Below are positions 21,120 through 36,040 of a stretch of 47,050 nt of DNA, piece after piece. The position numbers and the translations under genes are program-made. This DNA comes from Anaerolineae bacterium (GTDB taxonomy: Bacteria; Chloroflexota; Anaerolineae; Anaerolineales; Villigracilaceae). Each line of letters starts with the position of its first letter. Position 1 is the first letter of the stretch. The notes beneath the pieces were generated by a model. That model saw only the letters and a program-made list of their open reading frames with translations, was not told where the DNA came from and did not search any database. The DNA lies in the NCBI GenBank assembly GCA_018648605.1, contig JABGQU010000006.1, positions 1 to 47,050 of the forward strand. Reading direction: 5' to 3'.

Positions 21120-22880
21120 TTATTCAGCAGCTACGAATTCTGCCACGGGAAGACCTGCTTCAACCCAGCCACTGAAACCACCTTTGAGGCTGGTAACATT
21201 GGTGTAGCCATTGCTCAGGAGAATTTCCATTGCCATTGTGGAGCGGTGTCCGCTACCGCAGTAGACGACAATCTCGGCGTCTTTATCGGCGGGCCACATG
21301 CTTGCTTTGGCGATGAAGCTTTCCAACGGGATGGTCAGTAATTCCTGATCTACGACTGCGATCAGACCTTTTTCCTCTACTTCTTCAGCACGACGAACGT
21401 CGATGAGGATCATCTCTGGTTTTTCGATCAGATCAGTATTCAGCGCATCAGCGGCTTTTCCGCCCCAGCTATGATCTTTTGCCCAAACAACAGATGCGTC
21501 GATCGGTGTACTCAGGCTTTCGGGAACTGTAGCAACATCTAATACCATTGGCTCGGGAAGACCTTCGACAACAGGGTTGCCAGCTTCTACCCAGCTTGAA
21601 TAGGTGGCTTTCAATGCGCGGACATCAGTCCAACCCATTGCGTGAAGGGCGGTCATTGCTATCGTTGCGCGCCAGCCACTTCCACAGTAGGCAACGATCG
21701 GGGTATCGAAAGCAGGCAGAAGGTCGATGTGTTGCGTCAGTTCATTCAAAGGAATGTGTGTTGCGCCTTCAATATGACCTTGTTCGGTTACTTCTTCAAC
21801 TGAGCGCACATCTAGGATGAATGGAGGTGTATCTTCCACCATTTCGACCAAGAGAGCATCGGCTTTGATGGTATTGTAACCAACCATATTGGTCAGCATG
21901 ACATTGTAGTTCTGCGCCAAGGTGGGGACGCCGCCAACTGATGCATAACCAGCACCAACCCAACCGCCATAGCCACCTTTAAGGCTGTTGACATCTTCAT
22001 AACCATAAGAAAGAAGCATGGTCATTGCCATTGTGGAGCGATGTCCACTGCCGCAGTATACAGTGATGGGGGTATCAGCAGAGGGCCACATATCTTGGCT
22101 GGCAATAAAGTCTTCAAGCGGGATGTGGACAAAGTTTGGTGCGTCGATATAGCCTTTTTCATCAACTTCTTCTTGGCGGCGAACATCGATCACAACTAGA
22201 TCAGCATTTTCAACCATTGCGATATTCAATGCGTCGGCTGGTTGTACGCCCCATTTTGTTCCCATACCTGCGACAGCCATGGTTGCGGCGTCAGCAGCGG
22301 CGAGCAAGTCAGCGTCTACTTCAACAGCATCTAAAACCATTGCTTCAGGAAGACCCTCAGCTACGGGGTTGCCAGCTTCTTTCCAGTCAGAATAAAAAGC
22401 TTTGAGAGCACGGACATTTGTCCAGCCCATTCCGTGGAGCGAAGTCATCGCAATGGTTGCGCGCCAGCCGGAGCCACAATAAACAACAATGGGCGTGTCG
22501 AATGCGGGCAGAAGTTCAGTGTGTTGTGCCAGTTCGTTTACTGGAATATGAGCAGCACCTTCGATATGACCTGTTTCAGTTACTTCTTCAACTGAGCGAA
22601 CGTCCAAGATGAAGGGAGGTGTATCTTCAACTATTTCTAGAAGAAGAGCATCGGCTTTGATAGTATTGTAGCCTTCCATTTCGGCGAGCATGGTCCCAAA
22701 AGTATCATCAAGCGTAAGCGCTTCTACTACTGGCTCTGGTTCAGGAGCAGGTTCTGCGGGTGCTTCCGGCTCTTCAACAACAGGTGCTTCTGCAGCGGGA
22801 GCAGGTGAGCAAGCGCTCAGTACCATTCCTAGGATCATAGTGCTGGTCAGAAGCAAATATAGAATTCGATTCTTTTTCAT
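21120..22880 (-). CDS. Lipoprotein with four rhodanese domains
   Basis: 586 aa. The signal peptide has lipidation Cys24 (MVLSAC) and is followed by a Pro/Glu/Ala-rich linker. Four rhodanese domains follow, each with an active-site Cys in a six-residue loop: C135 and C399 (CGSGWR), C276 and C541 (CGSGHR). Domains 1 and 3 are near-copies, as are 2 and 4, giving an A-B-A-B order with a 264-265-residue period. All four Cys are kept, so sulfur transfer from thiosulfate, polysulfide or persulfides outside the cytoplasm is plausible. AAGGAG lies before ATG 22880. It starts 60 bases after the dodecahaem gene on the same strand, suggesting cotranscription. Confidence 0.93.
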   Translation of the reverse strand: MKKNRILYLLLTSTMILGMVLSACSPAPAAEAPVVEEPEAPAEPAPEPEPVVEALTLDDTFGTMLAEMEGYNTIKADALLLEIVEDTPPFILDVRSVEEVTETGHIEGAAHIPVNELAQHTELLPAFDTPIVVYCGSGWRATIAMTSLHGMGWTNVRALKAFYSDWKEAGNPVAEGLPEAMVLDAVEVDADLLAAADAATMAVAGMGTKWGVQPADALNIAMVENADLVVIDVRRQEEVDEKGYIDAPNFVHIPLEDFIASQDMWPSADTPITVYCGSGHRSTMAMTMLLSYGYEDVNSLKGGYGGWVGAGYASVGGVPTLAQNYNVMLTNMVGYNTIKADALLVEMVEDTPPFILDVRSVEEVTEQGHIEGATHIPLNELTQHIDLLPAFDTPIVAYCGSGWRATIAMTALHAMGWTDVRALKATYSSWVEAGNPVVEGLPEPMVLDVATVPESLSTPIDASVVWAKDHSWGGKAADALNTDLIEKPEMILIDVRRAEEVEEKGLIAVVDQELLTIPLESFIAKASMWPADKDAEIVVYCGSGHRSTMAMEILLSNGYTNVTSLKGGFSGWVEAGLPVAEFVAAE

Positions 22881-22940: not shown

Positions 22941-24350
22941 CTATTGCGAAAGAGGAGGGATTTCGTCAACGATCACAGATTGATTGGCTTCAAGCTCTGC
23001 AGGGCTCACTTTATCGGCTGTCAGGAAAATATCTGCATTGCCATGACAAGCTTCACAACTTTCGTTTTGTGGGGTGATCCGCTGAATATTATGCGGCGTA
23101 GCATACGCCCATGTAGGTCGTGCATCAAAATTCGAGAGTAAGTTTTCTCCGTAAAATGCATAGCTTTCCGTATCCACAGGAACATGCCGCACAGGCACAT
23201 ATTCATAAGGACGGTGATAGCTTGGATTCGGATTTTTACCAATGAAGAAGGTCAGGTATGTACCTTCTGTCTCAAAGAATGGATTGCCGCTTTCTTCGCT
23301 TACTGCAACATGACAACCATCGCAACTTGTATAGCTGACAGAATGACATACCTGGCAGGATAGCTTATCCTGATGCAAAATATGCTGGGGATTAGACGTT
23401 GCAGCTTCCTCATGACACGATCCGCACGCCGGGACTTCTGCTCCCGTATAACGATCAGGATTGCTTAGAAGAAGATCAGCATCTTCCGTTAAATCGTGGC
23501 ATTCTGTGCAAACACCCGTTGAGTCATGCATCTCCATACCAGAGTGGCAATCAACACAATTCATCCGACCTTGTCGGAAATGAATATCGCCAGAGATGCC
23601 TTCATGTTTGCCTAAATATTCAGAGCCAACACGGCTGCCATGACAGGCTGTGCAGTTTCGCGTCATAGATGGGGTCTTTTTGACATTGTGCCCGGCTATG
23701 AAACCTCCGCCAACAGAATTTGGCTGGCTGATATGGCAGTCGCCACAAGTCGCATGACAAGATGAACAGTGGTTTCCGAACATTCCTTCCAGTGCTTCGT
23801 GGTCTTCAGGTACAGAGCGCTCATCAATAGCTTTCCAATACCCATCTAAAGTCGAATGCAGGCTGGTTTCAAAGGTTTCTGCTTGCGTTGAATGACACAT
23901 CTGACATCCCTGATTTGGTAATGCGCTGGGGTCAGAGATCAACCCTGCATGTGCTTCATCCTTATCTGGAGATTGTTGGCCCTCATGACAAACAGTACAG
24001 ATTACCTGTCCGTGTACATCATCTACAAAATCATCTTCAACGAGAACTTTTTCCCAAGGCTCCAACGGAGCCACTTCGCCCCCTCAGCCTTCACCTTTGT
24101 TTTCAGAGATAATCTCTTCTTCAGGCTTGGCCGTGCTTATGAGGCGTTCTTTGTCTGTGTGGCAATCCAGACAATAACTAACTATTTCAGGTTCGCTTGT
24201 TGGGGTCGGAGGAGGAGGGAGTGTAGGTACTAAGGTAGCCTCTTCTATAGGTTCTTGTACTGGAGTTTCCTGCTCTGTGATTGTCGGAGAACATCCTGCA
24301 AAAAATATGAACAAAAGAAGAGTAAAAAGTAGATATTTTGTTTTTGTCAT
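22941..24350 (-). CDS. Dodecahaem c-type cytochrome lipoprotein with in-frame UGA
   Basis: The frame from ATG 24350 (GAGG six bases upstream) gives a lipoprotein signal with Cys20 (FFAGC), a Pro/Thr linker and one CxxCH, then TGA at 24084-24086 (codon 89). The same frame continues without another stop to 22941 and carries eleven more CxxCH motifs, twelve in all, for 469 residues. The downstream part has no signal peptide, so it could not be exported or haem-loaded alone. A hairpin GGCTCC-GTT-GGAGCC (24058-24072) lies just after the TGA. Explanations are selenocysteine insertion, Trp/Cys codon mutation or sequencing error, or reinitiation at GTG 24074. Likely an extracytoplasmic electron carrier. 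No close family name was recognised. Confidence 0.75.
24058..24086 (-). promoter_or_regulatory. UGA codon with SECIS-like hairpin
   Basis: Reading the minus strand, TGA is followed by 17 bases and then the G of the apical loop of a stem GGCTCC / GGAGCC with loop GTT; two weaker pairs continue below an unpaired T. Known bacterial SECIS elements place a loop G, often GU, about 16-37 bases after UGA, so position and loop fit loosely. The stem is short and could be chance. Confidence 0.4.
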
Positions 24351-27227: not shown

Positions 27228-28484
27228 TTAAGCCCGTGCTGTTTGGGGCACCTTCACATTGACGGGAACATGCTCCTCCTCGATCATGTCGTGATCGACT
27301 ACATGTAGATAACGGACACCTAACGAGAAGGTAAATAAACCATAGGCGATTACACCTCCTCCAACCATCCACTCGACAAGTGATGGGGTATAGGATGCGT
27401 ATGTGACAGTCGGCTGCCCGGGCAGATATGAAAGCACAATCATCGCGCCAGAGATATTGATATTCCAGCGAAAGGCTATTACGCCACCGACCACCATTAG
27501 CAATGCAGTCATACGCCAGAAGCGATTACTTCGTGTCTTTTTGTTGAGTAGCAAGATCATCGGCACGAATATCCCTATCAATATTTCGCCAAACCAGAAA
27601 TTAAAGGCGAGTGGACCTTTGGTAAGCAATTCTAGGCCTTCTGTTCGCCCAGGTTCGTAAGTGTATGTCATGGAGAGAGTGCTCCAGAAACGCCAATAAA
27701 AGTATCCAACTAGTGCCCAGCCAACAAATTTTGATAGTTTCTCGATCAGTTCATCCTTGACCTTGGCTTTATTTGTTAGCTGGGAAGCCATCATCGAGGC
27801 AAAGAGTGTTATCGAGATGCCACCTAGGATAGCTGAGAGCATAAATAATACTGACATCTCAGGTTTGTACCAGAAGGGGCGGGATTTGAGCACACCATAG
27901 GTAGCTCCGAGCGATGACTGATGCAAGCTGGAGAGAAAAAGCCCCGCTATTGCTAAGTATGGAGCATAATGATGGACACGTGACATCTTGGCTGTCAATT
28001 TGGGATATCGTGTGCGTAACCATTTTAAATTTGCAATAATTGGCATAGATTCGAGAACCAATACAGTGAAATACAAACCTACACACATGGTCACTTCCCA
28101 AAGCAGGGAGTGTGTATTCCAGTATATAAAAGCTTGGTAGAACTTGAAGGGACGGCCAATATCCATGAATAAGCAGAGCATAGCCATACTGTAGCCGATC
28201 AGTCCTACAAAAGTGGCTGTACGTGCAATCGGTTCGTATTCTTTTAGCCCAATTAGATAGACAACGGCACAAAGGGAGAAAGCTCCCGCTGCAAGCGCAA
28301 TGGATGAGAGGTCAATGGCGATCCATAGCCCCCAAGGAACTAAGTCTGTCAAATTGGTGACTGATAGCCCTTTCCACAAAACTATGACTCCGCCAGTAAC
28401 CCCAATAATCAGAAAGATGCTTAGGAAGGCTATCCATGCTATCCAGGGCGTGGGTTTAAAACGAGTGCGTAAATTTGTGATCAT
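27228..28484 (-). CDS. NrfD/PsrC-family quinone-interacting membrane subunit
   Basis: 418 aa with about ten membrane helices. It resembles the NrfD/HybB branch: WKGLSVTNLTDLVPWGLWIAIDLSSIALAAGAF near the start, GRPFKFYQAFIYWNTHSLLWEV, HQSSLGATYGV and RWNINISGAMI at the end. Such proteins exchange electrons between the quinone pool and an FeS partner and bind no haem. The start overlaps the FeS gene stop by four bases. There is no molybdopterin oxidoreductase gene here; the partner is an octahaem cytochrome, so the module may join quinones to c-type haems. Confidence 0.93.
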   Translation of the reverse strand: MITNLRTRFKPTPWIAWIAFLSIFLIIGVTGGVIVLWKGLSVTNLTDLVPWGLWIAIDLSSIALAAGAFSLCAVVYLIGLKEYEPIARTATFVGLIGYSMAMLCLFMDIGRPFKFYQAFIYWNTHSLLWEVTMCVGLYFTVLVLESMPIIANLKWLRTRYPKLTAKMSRVHHYAPYLAIAGLFLSSLHQSSLGATYGVLKSRPFWYKPEMSVLFMLSAILGGISITLFASMMASQLTNKAKVKDELIEKLSKFVGWALVGYFYWRFWSTLSMTYTYEPGRTEGLELLTKGPLAFNFWFGEILIGIFVPMILLLNKKTRSNRFWRMTALLMVVGGVIAFRWNINISGAMIVLSYLPGQPTVTYASYTPSLVEWMVGGGVIAYGLFTFSLGVRYLHVVDHDMIEEEHVPVNVKVPQTARA

Positions 28485-29260
28485 GCTTCTGCCTCCTCGA
28501 AAGCTTCGGGAGTAGCTAATACATAATAGACACGCGGGGCAGTACCTAATTCATCCCGCAAGCGAACGGTTGGACGTGAATTGATGATCTTGCTGACTTT
28601 GGATTCGGGATCATTTAGATCGCCGAAGACCCGTGCTCCGGTGGGGCAAGCAACTACACAGGCGGGCGTTGCGTCCGGGTCTACGCCCGGGGTTAAGCCG
28701 TGTGCCAAACCACGGTCGATACGTTGATAACAAAAGGAACATTTTTCTGGAACGCCACGGGGACGGCGCTCAACTTCTGGCTGCCCCCACTCCGGGACAG
28801 CTGGATTCTCCCCATCGAATTTCTCCCAATTGAATGAACGCGCCTGATAAGGGCAGGCTATTTCACAATATCGGCAGCCAATGCATTTGTCATAATCCAT
28901 CATGACGATACCATCTGAGCGATAGTAAGAAGCGCCTACCATACAGACATCAACACAGGGGGCATGTTCACAATGCATACATGGGCGGGGTAGGAAGGCG
29001 TCTTTATCACCAACTGGTTCGACTTGAATGACTTCGTTCCAGGAGATCTCTGGGGAAATATCGTTGTGGGCGCGGCAGGCAAGAGTGCAGTGTCCACAGC
29101 CTGTGCATTTGGATTGGTCAATAACCATGGCCCACTGCTGTTCTCCAGCTTCGGCTCCAGATGATGCATGTGCTGTTGGGCGCATGACTTGCATGCCAAC
29201 TAACCCGGCGGCACCCGCACCTGCTAATTTAAGGAAATCTCTCCGCTCAAGTTTACTCAT
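28481..29260 (-). CDS. Tat-exported four-cluster 4Fe-4S ferredoxin subunit (NrfC/DmsB-like)
   Basis: 259 aa. The N-terminus has a twin-arginine signal (ERRDFLKLAG) and a hydrophobic stretch, so it is exported folded. Cys groups for four clusters are visible: CTGCGHCTLAC, CMHCEHAPCVDVC, CIGCRYCEIACP and CSFC with CVVACPTGA. This matches NrfC/PsrB/DmsB electron-transfer subunits. It sits between an octahaem cytochrome gene (8-base overlap) and nrfD-like gene (4-base overlap), an arrangement that implies a stable three-subunit complex. Confidence 0.95.
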   Translation of the reverse strand: MSKLERRDFLKLAGAGAAGLVGMQVMRPTAHASSGAEAGEQQWAMVIDQSKCTGCGHCTLACRAHNDISPEISWNEVIQVEPVGDKDAFLPRPCMHCEHAPCVDVCMVGASYYRSDGIVMMDYDKCIGCRYCEIACPYQARSFNWEKFDGENPAVPEWGQPEVERRPRGVPEKCSFCYQRIDRGLAHGLTPGVDPDATPACVVACPTGARVFGDLNDPESKVSKIINSRPTVRLRDELGTAPRVYYVLATPEAFEEAEA

Positions 29261-30194
29261 CTTTATGACTCACTTTCTTGTTTAGTTTGCGGTATTTTTC
29301 ATCAAGCCAAGGAGCGAGAACTGTGCCTGCGGCCAGCCCGATCAATCCTGCCAAGCCGGCAAAGCCAAGTGGGCTAACTGGAACAGGTTCAGATGTTACA
29401 ACGACTGAGCTGTTTTGCACTTCAGGATGTTTTGGTGTAGTTATTGCGGTTTCTTCGTTACTGTGAATTTGGTCAGCATGACAGGTGTTGCATGATGCTA
29501 ATGTTGCCTGAAAACTGTGATCTTGAATGGTATGTGCAGGTGTATCTATTTCTACTACTGTGAGGTGGCAGTCGCTGCAAGAGACATTACTCTGTCCATG
29601 AATGGTGTGTGTGTGATCTTGAGAGTATTCTGTATGGCATTTTTGGCAGAGTTGTGATGCTTTATCAACATCATCGCCTTTTGTTGGGTCTACTGATTTC
29701 AGCGTTGCCTGATGTGGGTCATGGCAATTGATGCATGTCATATCACGTTGATAGTGGGCGCTGATTTCCCAGTTTTCCCAACCAAAACGCATATCGCTGT
29801 GGCAGGTACCACAGAGAACTGGTGAACGATTTATTGGTGTTGGGTTCGTAGGATGATCTTCTGGAATTGGACCATGGCAAGCTTCGCAAGCGATGCCATC
29901 TTGCTCCCATGTGCCGGTGGCGGGGTCGTAGCCGGTGGTATGGCATACCAAGCATGCTCCTGGTTTCCCTTGTGCTTCCCATGCTTCATTGAATATCGGG
30001 TCAGCTGTTGCCTGACCATGAGGGCCGCTTTGCCAACTTTCCATAAAGTCTGCATGGCAAACTTCGCATCCTATTTCACCTTCAGTTAGTGGAGGAGATA
30101 CCAAAGGTGATGCGTCAGCGGCTATGAGTGTTACGCCTGCAAATACCAAGGCGACCATTAGGGCTATGATTAGGCGTTCGGGGTATGAGAACAT
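29253..30194 (-). CDS. Octahaem c-type cytochrome, membrane-anchored
   Basis: 313 aa. A signal anchor at residues 8-26, eight CxxCH motifs (CEVCH, CLVCH, CEACH, CGTCH, CINCH, CQKCH, CSDCH, CNTCH), then a C-terminal helix (PLGFAGLAGLIGLAAGTVLAP) and a Lys-rich tail. The spacing resembles cytochrome c554/NrfB-like electron carriers more than catalytic octahaem enzymes; no CxxCK site is seen. It is the upstream partner of the FeS-NrfD pair. Electrons could flow quinol to NrfD to FeS to octahaem, or the reverse. Confidence 0.92.
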   Translation of the reverse strand: MFSYPERLIIALMVALVFAGVTLIAADASPLVSPPLTEGEIGCEVCHADFMESWQSGPHGQATADPIFNEAWEAQGKPGACLVCHTTGYDPATGTWEQDGIACEACHGPIPEDHPTNPTPINRSPVLCGTCHSDMRFGWENWEISAHYQRDMTCINCHDPHQATLKSVDPTKGDDVDKASQLCQKCHTEYSQDHTHTIHGQSNVSCSDCHLTVVEIDTPAHTIQDHSFQATLASCNTCHADQIHSNEETAITTPKHPEVQNSSVVVTSEPVPVSPLGFAGLAGLIGLAAGTVLAPWLDEKYRKLNKKVSHKDE

Positions 30195-33178: not shown

Positions 33179-34123
33179 TTAAATAGTGGAGACATTGGTT
33201 AAATTATCGAAGACAGCATCATTAAGATGCTCACGCTGGCTTTGAACAAAATCCCAGAATAGAGTTTGTGCTCGGGTGCATGGTGTGGAAATATGGCGCA
33301 TTGCGTACAAAGTTCGTTGTAAATTTAGTCCTTCGACCATTACTTTTCTGACCCTCCCCAGGGTTAGTGCCCGGGCAGCTGCCAATTCAGAGATAAAGGC
33401 AATTCCAATTCCTTCTTCAACGGCGATTTCAATTGCTTCAGCGTTGCCGACTTCCATAACAACATTTAGCCTGTCGGCGGTTATGCCATGGGTTTTTAAT
33501 CCATCTAGCATTACTTCGCGAGTACCAGATGTTTCCTCGCGCAAGATCAATGGTTGATCTACCAAATCGGATGGTAATGCTTTGCCATATTCTCCCCAAG
33601 GATGATCTGGGTGAACAATTAAGATTACACGATCTTCATAGAAGGGTTGATATTCGAGCAAACTATGGTCAATTTGCTTACTCAAAATACCAATACAAAA
33701 TTTTTCTTGAACAACACGATTGATTACACCTTTGCGCCCCATAACGTTAATATTAGCACGCACATCGGGGTACAAATGCCGAAAAGATGCAACTAGCTTT
33801 GGCAGCAAGTATTTCCCAGAGGTTGTTGAGCAACCGATTTCGATCATGCCACACGTATGGCCATTAATATTATGCAAAGTATCCTCGAAAAGACGAGACG
33901 TATCTAGCAGCTCACGAGCCATCGGGAGGAGAGTCTGCCCAGCTTCGCTGAGAAAGACAGACCGCCCGCGCCTGTTAAATAATTTGACATCGTAGTCTTT
34001 TTCAAGAGATTGAATATTCTGACTAACGGCAGATTGAGAGAGATGTAAACGCTGTGCAGCCCTGCTGAAATTCATTTCTTCAGCTGCAGTAACAAAAACC
34101 TTTATTTCTGTTAGATTGAGCAT
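33179..34123 (-). CDS. LysR-family transcriptional regulator (CbbR/CysB-like)
   Basis: 314 aa. The winged helix-turn-helix is at residues 1-60 (VFVTAAEEMNFSRAAQRLHLSQSAVSQNIQSLE), with the substrate-binding domain from about 90 (GMIEIGCSTTSGKYLLPKLVASFRHLYP). This start of the effector domain is common in CbbR/CysB/YwfK-type members. It is divergent from the octahaem tetrathionate-reductase-like gene, the standard geometry for a LysR regulator and its target. The effector cannot be read from sequence. Confidence 0.95.
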   Translation of the reverse strand: MLNLTEIKVFVTAAEEMNFSRAAQRLHLSQSAVSQNIQSLEKDYDVKLFNRRGRSVFLSEAGQTLLPMARELLDTSRLFEDTLHNINGHTCGMIEIGCSTTSGKYLLPKLVASFRHLYPDVRANINVMGRKGVINRVVQEKFCIGILSKQIDHSLLEYQPFYEDRVILIVHPDHPWGEYGKALPSDLVDQPLILREETSGTREVMLDGLKTHGITADRLNVVMEVGNAEAIEIAVEEGIGIAFISELAAARALTLGRVRKVMVEGLNLQRTLYAMRHISTPCTRAQTLFWDFVQSQREHLNDAVFDNLTNVSTI

Positions 34124-34279: not shown

Positions 34280-34333
34280 CCTTTTGTCACAGATTGTTGG
34301 CAAAAAATCAAGTTCTATATAAGGAGAATGCAC

Positions 34334-36040
34334 ATGAAGTCCTCGTTCCAAATGAAGGGATTGCGGATGCTCGGTTTTGCTGTTGCTTTTGCACTTGTTG
34401 TCACTGGTTTATTCTTAAGTGGCAGTGCTGTTGCAGCACCGAACCTTGGAGAAGGCCCAACCGACCATAGTCTCTTCCCACAGTTGGCTGGTCCTTTTGA
34501 ACAGCCACAAGATGTAACTGTTGCTTGTCTGGAGTGCCATGTAGATTCGGCTACTCAAGTTATGGCGACCGTCCACTGGACTTGGGAATATACCGATCCC
34601 GTAACAGGTCAAGAATTGGGCAAAAATAATGTTGTAAATAATTTTTGTATTGCGATGCCCTCCAATGAACCGCGTTGTACAAGCTGCCATGTTGGTTATG
34701 GCTATAAAGACAACACTTTTGACTTCACCATTGAAGCCAATGTAGATTGTTTGGTTTGCCACGCCCAAGGCGGAACTTATAAGAAATTCCCCGCTGGTTC
34801 TGGCAACCCCTGGCTTGCTGATGAGCCGAAAGAATTCCCTCCTGGCTCCGGTAAGATGTGGGAAAAAATTGATTTGATCGCAGCAGCACAGAGTGTAACC
34901 TCCCCAACACGTGCCAATTGTGGTTCCTGCCACTTCTTTGGTGGCGGCGGTGATGCTGTCAAGCACGGCGATTTGGACAGCACCATGGGCGCACCTGCTC
35001 CTGAATTGGACGTCCACATGAGCCCAGATACTCAAGATTTCAGCTGCACCGCTTGCCACGCTGGCGAAAATCATGAGATCACGGGACGAATATACACTGG
35101 CGAAGAGCCCGTTTTATGTGAGACTTGCCACACCGGTGACAAAGCTCCTCACGCAAATAGCGAAGAGAGTGAAGCCCTCTCTGCTCACACAGAGACACTC
35201 GCTTGCCAAACCTGCCACATTCCTGAATTTGCCCGTGGGCGCACGACAAAAATGTCCTGGGATTGGTCTACTGCTGGCTTGAAGAACGACGAAGGCAAAC
35301 CTTACCAGACCAAAAATGAGAGTGGAGAGGTCATTTATGACAGCAAGAAGGGTGACTTTGTCTGGGAAATGGACGTAACACCGCATTATGCATGGTGGAA
35401 CGGTCAAACAAATTACCTGACCCCTGAATCTGTAATTGATCCTTCGGCCCCTGTAATGATGACAGATTTCCAAGGTTCCCTTGGTGATGGCAAGATCTAC
35501 CCCTTCAAATACTTTACCGGTGTAACACCTTACGATGCTGGTAATAATGTAATGGCTGTGCCCAACCTGTTCCCTAATGGCGAAGATCCCAATGCATATT
35601 GGAAAAACTGGGACTGGGATGCCGCTCTTGCATCTGGTATGGAATACTCAGGGTATGAATACAGCGGTGAATATGGTTTTGTTGATACCGTCTTCATGTT
35701 CGTGCAGAATCATCAGGTTGCTCCTTCTGCAAATGCTGTTGAATGCCAGGAATGTCACACTGCTGATGGTCGTCTCGACTTTTCAGCCTTGGGTTACAGT
35801 GACGAAGAAGTCACCAAACTCACAGTTTTCCCACCTGCAGAGCCCGCTCCTGAACCAACAGAAGAGCCTGCACCTGCGGAAGAACCTGAAGTTGTCGAAG
35901 AACCCGCTGCTGTAGAAGAACCTGCCGCCGAAGTTGATGCTCCTGCGAGCGGAAGCGCGACGATGTGGATCGCTTTGGTTGTTGTTCTTGTGATTATCTT
36001 TGTTGCTTACTTCGCAATGCGCGGTAAGAAAGAAGAATAA
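34334..36040 (+). CDS. Octahaem tetrathionate-reductase-like cytochrome, membrane-anchored
   Basis: 568 aa from ATG 34334; AAGGAG lies 7 bases upstream, while the ATG at 34328 is only one base from it. A signal peptide (residues 5-35) is followed by eight CxxCH motifs (CLECH, CTSCH, CLVCH, CGSCH, CTACH, CETCH, CQTCH, CQECH). CTSCHVGYGYKD, DCLVCH with TYKKFPAG, and the long haem-poor region before the last haem match the octahaem tetrathionate reductase (Otr) family. The C-terminus adds an acidic Pro/Glu repeat linker and a membrane helix (WIALVVVLVIIFVAYF), absent from the soluble Shewanella enzyme as I recall it. Tetrathionate, nitrite or hydroxylamine are possible substrates. Confidence 0.88.
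   Translation: MKSSFQMKGLRMLGFAVAFALVVTGLFLSGSAVAAPNLGEGPTDHSLFPQLAGPFEQPQDVTVACLECHVDSATQVMATVHWTWEYTDPVTGQELGKNNVVNNFCIAMPSNEPRCTSCHVGYGYKDNTFDFTIEANVDCLVCHAQGGTYKKFPAGSGNPWLADEPKEFPPGSGKMWEKIDLIAAAQSVTSPTRANCGSCHFFGGGGDAVKHGDLDSTMGAPAPELDVHMSPDTQDFSCTACHAGENHEITGRIYTGEEPVLCETCHTGDKAPHANSEESEALSAHTETLACQTCHIPEFARGRTTKMSWDWSTAGLKNDEGKPYQTKNESGEVIYDSKKGDFVWEMDVTPHYAWWNGQTNYLTPESVIDPSAPVMMTDFQGSLGDGKIYPFKYFTGVTPYDAGNNVMAVPNLFPNGEDPNAYWKNWDWDAALASGMEYSGYEYSGEYGFVDTVFMFVQNHQVAPSANAVECQECHTADGRLDFSALGYSDEEVTKLTVFPPAEPAPEPTEEPAPAEEPEVVEEPAAVEEPAAEVDAPASGSATMWIALVVVLVIIFVAYFAMRGKKEE

Follow-up and report, generated by a model that had tools for sequence, protein, structure and literature searches.

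An in-frame UGA followed by a conserved hairpin points to a selenocysteine-containing multihaem cytochrome c family in Anaerolineae

Within the 47,050-nt stretch of Anaerolineae DNA analysed here (the window), the reading frame of a multihaem cytochrome c is crossed by a TGA, which raises the question of whether this codon ends the protein, marks an error or encodes an amino acid, selenocysteine (Sec) in particular. The features of the locus are collected in Table 1. As the initial annotation stated, the TGA is the 89th codon, and beyond it the frame stays open for a further 380 residues, which hold 11 haem motifs, before a TAG closes it; a single CxxCH lies upstream of the TGA, giving a total of 12. 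Cytochrome c3/c7 Pfam domains were found in the product by domain search. The signal peptide, which on our reading of the sequence is presumably of the lipoprotein type, contains an FAGC that we take to be a lipobox, and its Cys20 is nearly invariant in the alignments. The surroundings of U89 in the window protein read KGEG-U-GGEVAPLEPWEKV.

Table 1. Coordinates of the features discussed (positions in the window)
Feature	Coordinates	Strand	Remarks
Putative dodecahaem Sec cytochrome c CDS	22941..24350	-	469 aa, U89; start ATG 24348-24350, stop TAG 22941-22943
Signal peptide, lipobox FAGC (Cys20)	24291..24350	-	read from sequence
Haem motif 1, C60LDCH64	24159..24173	-	sole CxxCH upstream of the TGA
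Putative Sec arm, residues 83-101 (ENKGEGUGGEVAPLEPWEK)	24048..24104	-	glycine-rich; conserved in Sec rows
Predicted Sec codon U89, in-frame TGA	24084..24086	-	TGA kept in homologues
Putative bacterial SECIS hairpin GGCUCC-GUU-GGAGCC	24058..24072	-	nt 12-26 after UGA
Four-domain rhodanese, directly downstream	21120..22880	-	four PF00581 stretches
NrfD-like membrane protein, 4Fe-4S protein and cytochrome c7-type protein	27228..30194	-	
LysR-type regulator	33179..34123	-	most named loci have a relative close to the cytochrome

Homologues were collected from two sources. The window protein matched 119 of 400 same-order genomes at E 0.001 or better, many of them weakly and together spanning 53 of 130 genera; the long matches mostly held one TGA each, and five genomes (G028, G171, G186, G348 and G169) had full-length matches without it. 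Among the 83 same-order loci that were read, the codon at the site was TGA in 77, TGG in two and TTT, CTC and CAG in one each, the remaining locus being distant with a gap at the site. The second source was a scan of named genomes comprising the best 80 of 234 relatives, among which the nearest is Candidatus Desulfolinea nitratireducens (73%); the titles of these relatives name Chloroflexi/Chloroflexota, Anaerolineae and further groups and genera that we take to belong to Chloroflexota/Anaerolineae (the placement of Bellilinea was looked up). The two sets were merged with removal of duplicates between them, and the distant L092 and L171, whose N-terminus is missing, were left out before counting. 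TGA occupies the site in 97 of the resulting 102 distinct loci with a readable site. In a phylum-wide sample of 400 genomes, 13 matched at E 1e-20; outside the order, TGA was found at three loci with 42-47% identity, L185 in one genome and L186 and L187 in a second, and the more distant relatives L188 and L092 (26-28%) lack the Sec arm entirely. A protein search of plasmids gave no match to the cytochrome.

This distribution bears on three of the alternatives to Sec. The assembly is a draft of 211 contigs, in which a sequencing error or a pseudogene created by a nonsense mutation might be suspected, but the window copy has no other in-frame stop, and the identical TGA recurs in 97 distinct loci including those of two isolates, Thermanaerothrix daxensis GNS-1 (L117) and Bellilinea caldifistulae GOMI-1 (L141). 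Since the isolates carry it, the TGA is not an assembly artefact, and error or decay can practically be dismissed. If the TGA were instead a true stop, the locus would encode an 88-residue lipopeptide and a separate, internally started cytochrome, for which the 377-aa ORF with a GTG start that follows the TGA is the candidate. By our own reading that ORF begins without the signal peptide that c-type haem attachment needs; to the initial annotation, too, translation as one protein seemed required. The frame and the TGA have moreover been kept together in the 97 loci, and we regard a pair of proteins as highly improbable.

The third alternative, insertion of Trp at UGA by near-cognate readthrough or under a changed code, gains some ground from the TGG in two of the five homologues that lack TGA (L029 and L051). 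The other three have Phe, Leu and Gln, so that the conserved Trp which the initial annotation had named as evidence against Sec is absent, TGG standing at 2 of 102 sites; a TGA in 97 of 102 loci would be unexpected if Trp were meant. TGA also terminates 8 of the 26 window ORFs checked, so UGA is not a general sense codon here, and Trp would leave both the frozen hairpin and the Sec machinery described below without explanation. A Trp reading is thus very improbable. The same alignment shows neither TGC nor any Cys at the site in the 102 readable loci. Homologues with Cys are common among selenoproteins according to the part of a recent review available to us (PMC13188914), although they are not defining for a selenoprotein gene.

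The initial annotation had further described a perfect 6-bp hairpin with the loop GUU, the loop G being nt 18 after UGA, and this description proved exact. A 20-nt stretch holding the hairpin folds at -10.3 kcal/mol, a value reached by none of 200 shuffles (z -3.8). In a 45-nt stretch starting at the UGA a different fold wins and z is only -0.8, so one sequence is no proof, and it is conservation that shows the hairpin. Its six pairs are all standard in 96 of the 97 TGA loci and its loop is GUU in every one; RNAalifold applied to the 97 loci returns exactly the hairpin at nt 12-26. Pair 13-25 is G-C in 93 loci, C-G in three (L046, L080 and L163) and G-U in one, and in the three C-G loci two residues are swapped, changing VAPLEP to VPPLEA, an exchange that keeps the pair. 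Outside the order, L185, L186 and L187 have C-G at the pair that is G-C in the window; in L185, pair 17-21 is A-A, leaving a 4-bp stem above a G-U pair with a 5-nt loop.

Codon usage across the hairpin is close to invariant. Between nt 10 and 24 after UGA, Val is GTG in 95/96 loci, Ala GCT in 93/93, and Pro CCG, Leu TTG and Glu GAG in 97/97 each, as compared with a median share of the commonest codon of 0.55 and a maximum of 0.90 over 140 other conserved degenerate columns. This synonymous freeze reaches as far as the foot of the stem at nt 26, and the next wobble base is free. The available part of the review gives as constraints on bacterial SECIS elements a loop of 3-9 nt, a stem of 4-16 bp, a G in the first two loop positions, a distance of 16-37 nt from UGA to the loop and a minimum free energy of at most -7.5 kcal/mol (PMC13188914); the window hairpin has a 3-nt loop starting with G, 6 bp, 17 nt from UGA to loop and the energy given above for the 20-nt stretch. 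Rfam returned no match to the hairpin, its two chance rows lying far below the gathering score.

A perfect dyad would also suit protein binding, and a LysR-type gene is often nearby, lying within the fetched flanks of 69 of the 80 named loci (the best 80 of 234 relatives), so that the frozen repeat might be a DNA operator rather than a SECIS element. An operator would hardly be expected at precisely nt 12-26 after the TGA in 97/97 loci, to agree with the published SECIS constraints, or to be degraded in three of the four loci without Sec for which it was aligned. The 15-mer also occurs only once in its own genome, with up to one mismatch allowed, and the hairpin is therefore specific to this gene in that genome. 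An operator is accordingly very unlikely, and the repeat is better read as a putative SECIS element.

The machinery for Sec insertion, whose presence the initial annotation had proposed to look for, was found complete in the genome of the window: SelA (435 bits), SelB (334 bits), SelD (351 bits) and a tRNA-Sec (65 bits) with the anticodon TCA. The SelD gene itself (L191, C75:25113-26045) has an in-frame TGA, in the context CAGUASKL, which brings the candidate selenoprotein genes of this genome to at least two. The search for SelB and tRNA-Sec covered 79 of the 83 genomes from which a homologue locus had been retrieved. SelB scored above its cut-off in 76 of the 79, and tRNA-Sec was found in 72, including 48 of the 48 of good quality. 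Three TGA-bearing genomes gave no SelB match above cut-off (G387, G235 and G291), and six of the seven genomes without a tRNA-Sec match carry a TGA copy (G333, G335, G235, G384, G123 and G158); none of the genomes just named belongs to the 48 good-quality genomes counted for tRNA-Sec, and we take these absences to be gaps in drafts.

The conserved TGA, the frozen hairpin, the compensatory changes and the complete machinery all support the original suggestion, and because the stop and the hairpin downstream of it have been kept in about a hundred related genes, we conclude that the UGA is very probably read as Sec and that the gene is a selenoprotein gene, as judged from comparison of sequences.

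The five homologues without TGA have Trp (L029, L051), Phe (L074), Leu (L083) and Gln (L087) at the site. The motif of the Sec arm is eroded in all five, and part of the arm is missing from L087. A tree requires at least four changes between Sec-bearing and Sec-less states and places Sec-bearing loci as the nearest relatives of L029, L051 and L083, so that repeated loss of Sec is the simplest history. Loss of the machinery does not explain these cases, since SelB scores above cut-off in 5/5 and tRNA-Sec is present in 4/5 of the Sec-less genomes. The locus L029 (the same gene as L120) has TGG and a motif one codon shorter with a hairpin that is still perfect, including a compensatory change of pair 16-22; this is perhaps a SECIS relic of recent loss, or else the outcome of a hairpin-templated mutation.

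Residues that change together with Sec were also considered. Arg262 is altered in all five Sec-less rows, where 0.0001 such columns would be expected under independence. It was rejected as a catalytic partner of Sec, since Gly262 occurs alongside Sec in L052 and L053, and the three distant Sec-bearing loci carry Ala, Gly and Glu at this position. Tyr171 and His194 are also variable in those three loci.

Directly downstream of the cytochrome, and not mentioned in the initial annotation, lies a four-domain rhodanese, which from our own reading of its N-terminus is presumably also of the lipoprotein type. It matches NF041203 with 126.9 bits (cut-off 115). That model is named "rhodanese-related (seleno)protein"; the active-site motifs of the window rhodanese have Cys. 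With 2.5 kb allowed downstream, a same-strand rhodanese was found in 91 of 91 TGA loci for which at least part of this region is available, its first aligned base lying a median of 94 nt beyond the stop; six further TGA loci end before the position of the rhodanese and are outside this count. The alignment covers at least 150 residues in 89 of the 91, and the other two (L016 and L063) give a short match on contigs that stop some 500 nt downstream. None of the five Sec-less loci has an intact rhodanese: four have none, among them L083 with only 933 nt of downstream sequence, and L051 has a single-domain remnant. Outside the order, the rhodanese of L185 adjoins the cytochrome on the upstream side, and none was found in the available flanking sequence of L186 and L187.

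Fisher's test of Sec against rhodanese gives 3e-7 when L016 and L063 are scored as having no rhodanese, a value that takes no account of relatedness. Across 200 random pairings, between 2 and 4 of the 4 independent pairs agreed (mean 3.4) and none was opposed; about four independent losses are too few for a significant association. On the distribution as a whole we consider it likely that Sec and rhodanese are linked. A genome-wide rhodanese search at E 1e-30 was set aside as uninformative, since it misses G090 and G065, where the local search matches.

The neighbouring NrfD-like, 4Fe-4S and c7-type genes form a candidate module on the quinone side. Among the 80 named loci (the best 80 of 234 relatives), relatives of the NrfD and Fe-S proteins lie in the flanks of 31 and a relative of the c7-type protein in those of 29. 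The window also holds, on the plus strand at 34328-36040 and 10 kb from the Sec cytochrome, a true cytochrome gene of the octahaem tetrathionate reductase (OTR) family with no in-frame TGA, which scores 554.6 bits with TIGR04315 (cut-off 375).

NCBIfam gave no match to the Sec cytochrome of the window up to E 0.1. Among 46 aligned relatives, the generic multihaem models DmsE (39/46), GSU2203 (35/46), ExtM (13/46) and TIGR04315 (3/46, weak, best E 1.1e-6) were matched. In 37 chosen genomes, TIGR04315 gave rows of 20-22 bits on the cytochrome gene itself (G062, G125 and G348), as against the cut-off of 375, and separate TIGR04315 genes above cut-off in 24 of the 37, which score 541-639 bits and have no internal stop.

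The predicted structure has a mean pLDDT of 76. Confidence is lower across residues 81-100, averaging about 66 at residues 81-90 versus about 90 at residues 101-140; some other stretches are equally low. Foldseek found no match in the PDB at E 0.001 or better. A VIA alignment of model residues 110-469 with 1sp3, of the OTR family, gave Z 9.6 over 257 residues at 4.0 A and 18% identity, the next row having Z 4.1, and the cytochrome body of the model may thus share the OTR fold; it differs from OTR in its extra haems and Sec arm towards the N-terminus and in scoring below the TIGR04315 cut-off. When solved structures were searched by sequence, only haem stretches were matched, and these in part; the best hit was 28pb_A, a cytochrome c (E 1.1e-4 and 3.3e-6). 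Eleven histidines outside the haem motifs are conserved in 93/93 Sec rows, and one of the 12 motifs of the window protein is missing in 43 of the 93, so that Sec need not ligate a haem.

SelD usually carries its Sec in a glycine-rich motif of the type KGxGUGCK. The likeness to the Sec arm is confined to this local context, and the corresponding stretch of the SelD from the same genome, given above, differs from the arm. In SelD the Sec is borne on a flexible N-terminal loop, according to the available part of the review (PMC13188914).

Sec in a multihaem cytochrome had been called unusual in the initial annotation. Unusual it is, but not unheard of: the part available of the 2026 review, which covers 119 selenoprotein families and subfamilies, lists ExtKL and a GenBank-annotated TIGR04315 type as multihaem Sec proteins, as well as a CXXCH-containing barrel protein of the GSU2204 family (PMC13188914). 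The present family scores below the cut-offs of both the ExtKL and TIGR04315 models and was not found in the published selenoprotein literature that was searched. ExtKL (NF040886) of Geobacter is the closest parallel, being likewise a multihaem cytochrome with Sec (PMC13188914, in part) and having a rhodanese, ExtH, in its cluster (PMC5877670, in part). The differences are several: extH sits three genes before extKL (PMC5877670, in part) whereas the window rhodanese is directly downstream, ExtKL is predicted to have 5 haems as against 12 motifs, and the window family is from Chloroflexota. NF040886 gave no match to the window protein and is absent among the families listed (25 of 30) for the 46 relatives. 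The Sec cytochrome and its rhodanese are therefore taken as a parallel to the ext cluster, not as members of it.

Taken with the neighbourhood, these comparisons suggest a mechanism. Decoding of the UGA as Sec by the ribosome would rely on SelB, on tRNA-Sec and on the hairpin at nt 12-26, and the product would be an exported lipoprotein-type multihaem cytochrome with Sec89 carried on a glycine-rich arm (GxGUGGxVAPLEPWEK) located between the first and second haems. We infer that the arm could be a mobile reagent, whose selenolate would take up or give up a sulfane-sulfur or related chalcogen group together with the neighbouring rhodanese, while the haem chain would conduct electrons into or out of the quinone pool, via the NrfD/Fe-S/c7 module in some genomes. 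As a whole this mechanism is put forward tentatively. Given a rhodanese partner, sulfane-sulfur chemistry is the first guess and selenite or tellurite chemistry the second.

For the latter, in which Sec would serve selenite/tellurite or metal handling and not sulfur, speaks the precedent of ExtKL, a Sec cytochrome clustered with a rhodanese and, in the part of the source available, proposed to act in selenite reduction (PMC5877670). The window protein lacks an NCBIfam match to ExtKL, and the proximity of the true OTR-family gene hints at sulfur; we consider selenite or metal handling somewhat unlikely. Going beyond the sulfane-sulfur proposal, and with less assurance than attaches to it, we speculate that a many-haem wire with a swinging Sec arm, supplied by a dedicated four-domain rhodanese or supplying it, would constitute a respiratory chalcogen enzyme of new design. 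On this same speculative reading, Sec and rhodanese would be kept or lost as a unit across Anaerolineae, with no Cys substitute seen. Stopping at the UGA under selenium shortage is a possible means of regulation.

The locus thus appears to add a whole selenoprotein family, widespread in Anaerolineae, whose members are probably split in two by gene callers and which, as no Cys homologue was seen, would be missed by searches for Sec/Cys pairs. It would link selenium with electron transfer outside the cytoplasm in a phylum that inhabits anoxic waters and sediments, and since two cultured isolates carry the gene, both Sec and its role are directly testable.

Two minor observations concern variation in the family and the wider window. 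In the alignment, L081 and L086 carry an inserted segment of some 65 residues, including one additional pair of haem motifs, between haems 3 and 4. The number of haem motifs is 14 in each of L081, L082, L084, L085 and L086, and L082, L084 and L085 probably share the insertion. At the edge of the window, a 549-aa ORF on the plus strand (88-1737) has an IS200-like transposase domain at its C-terminus.
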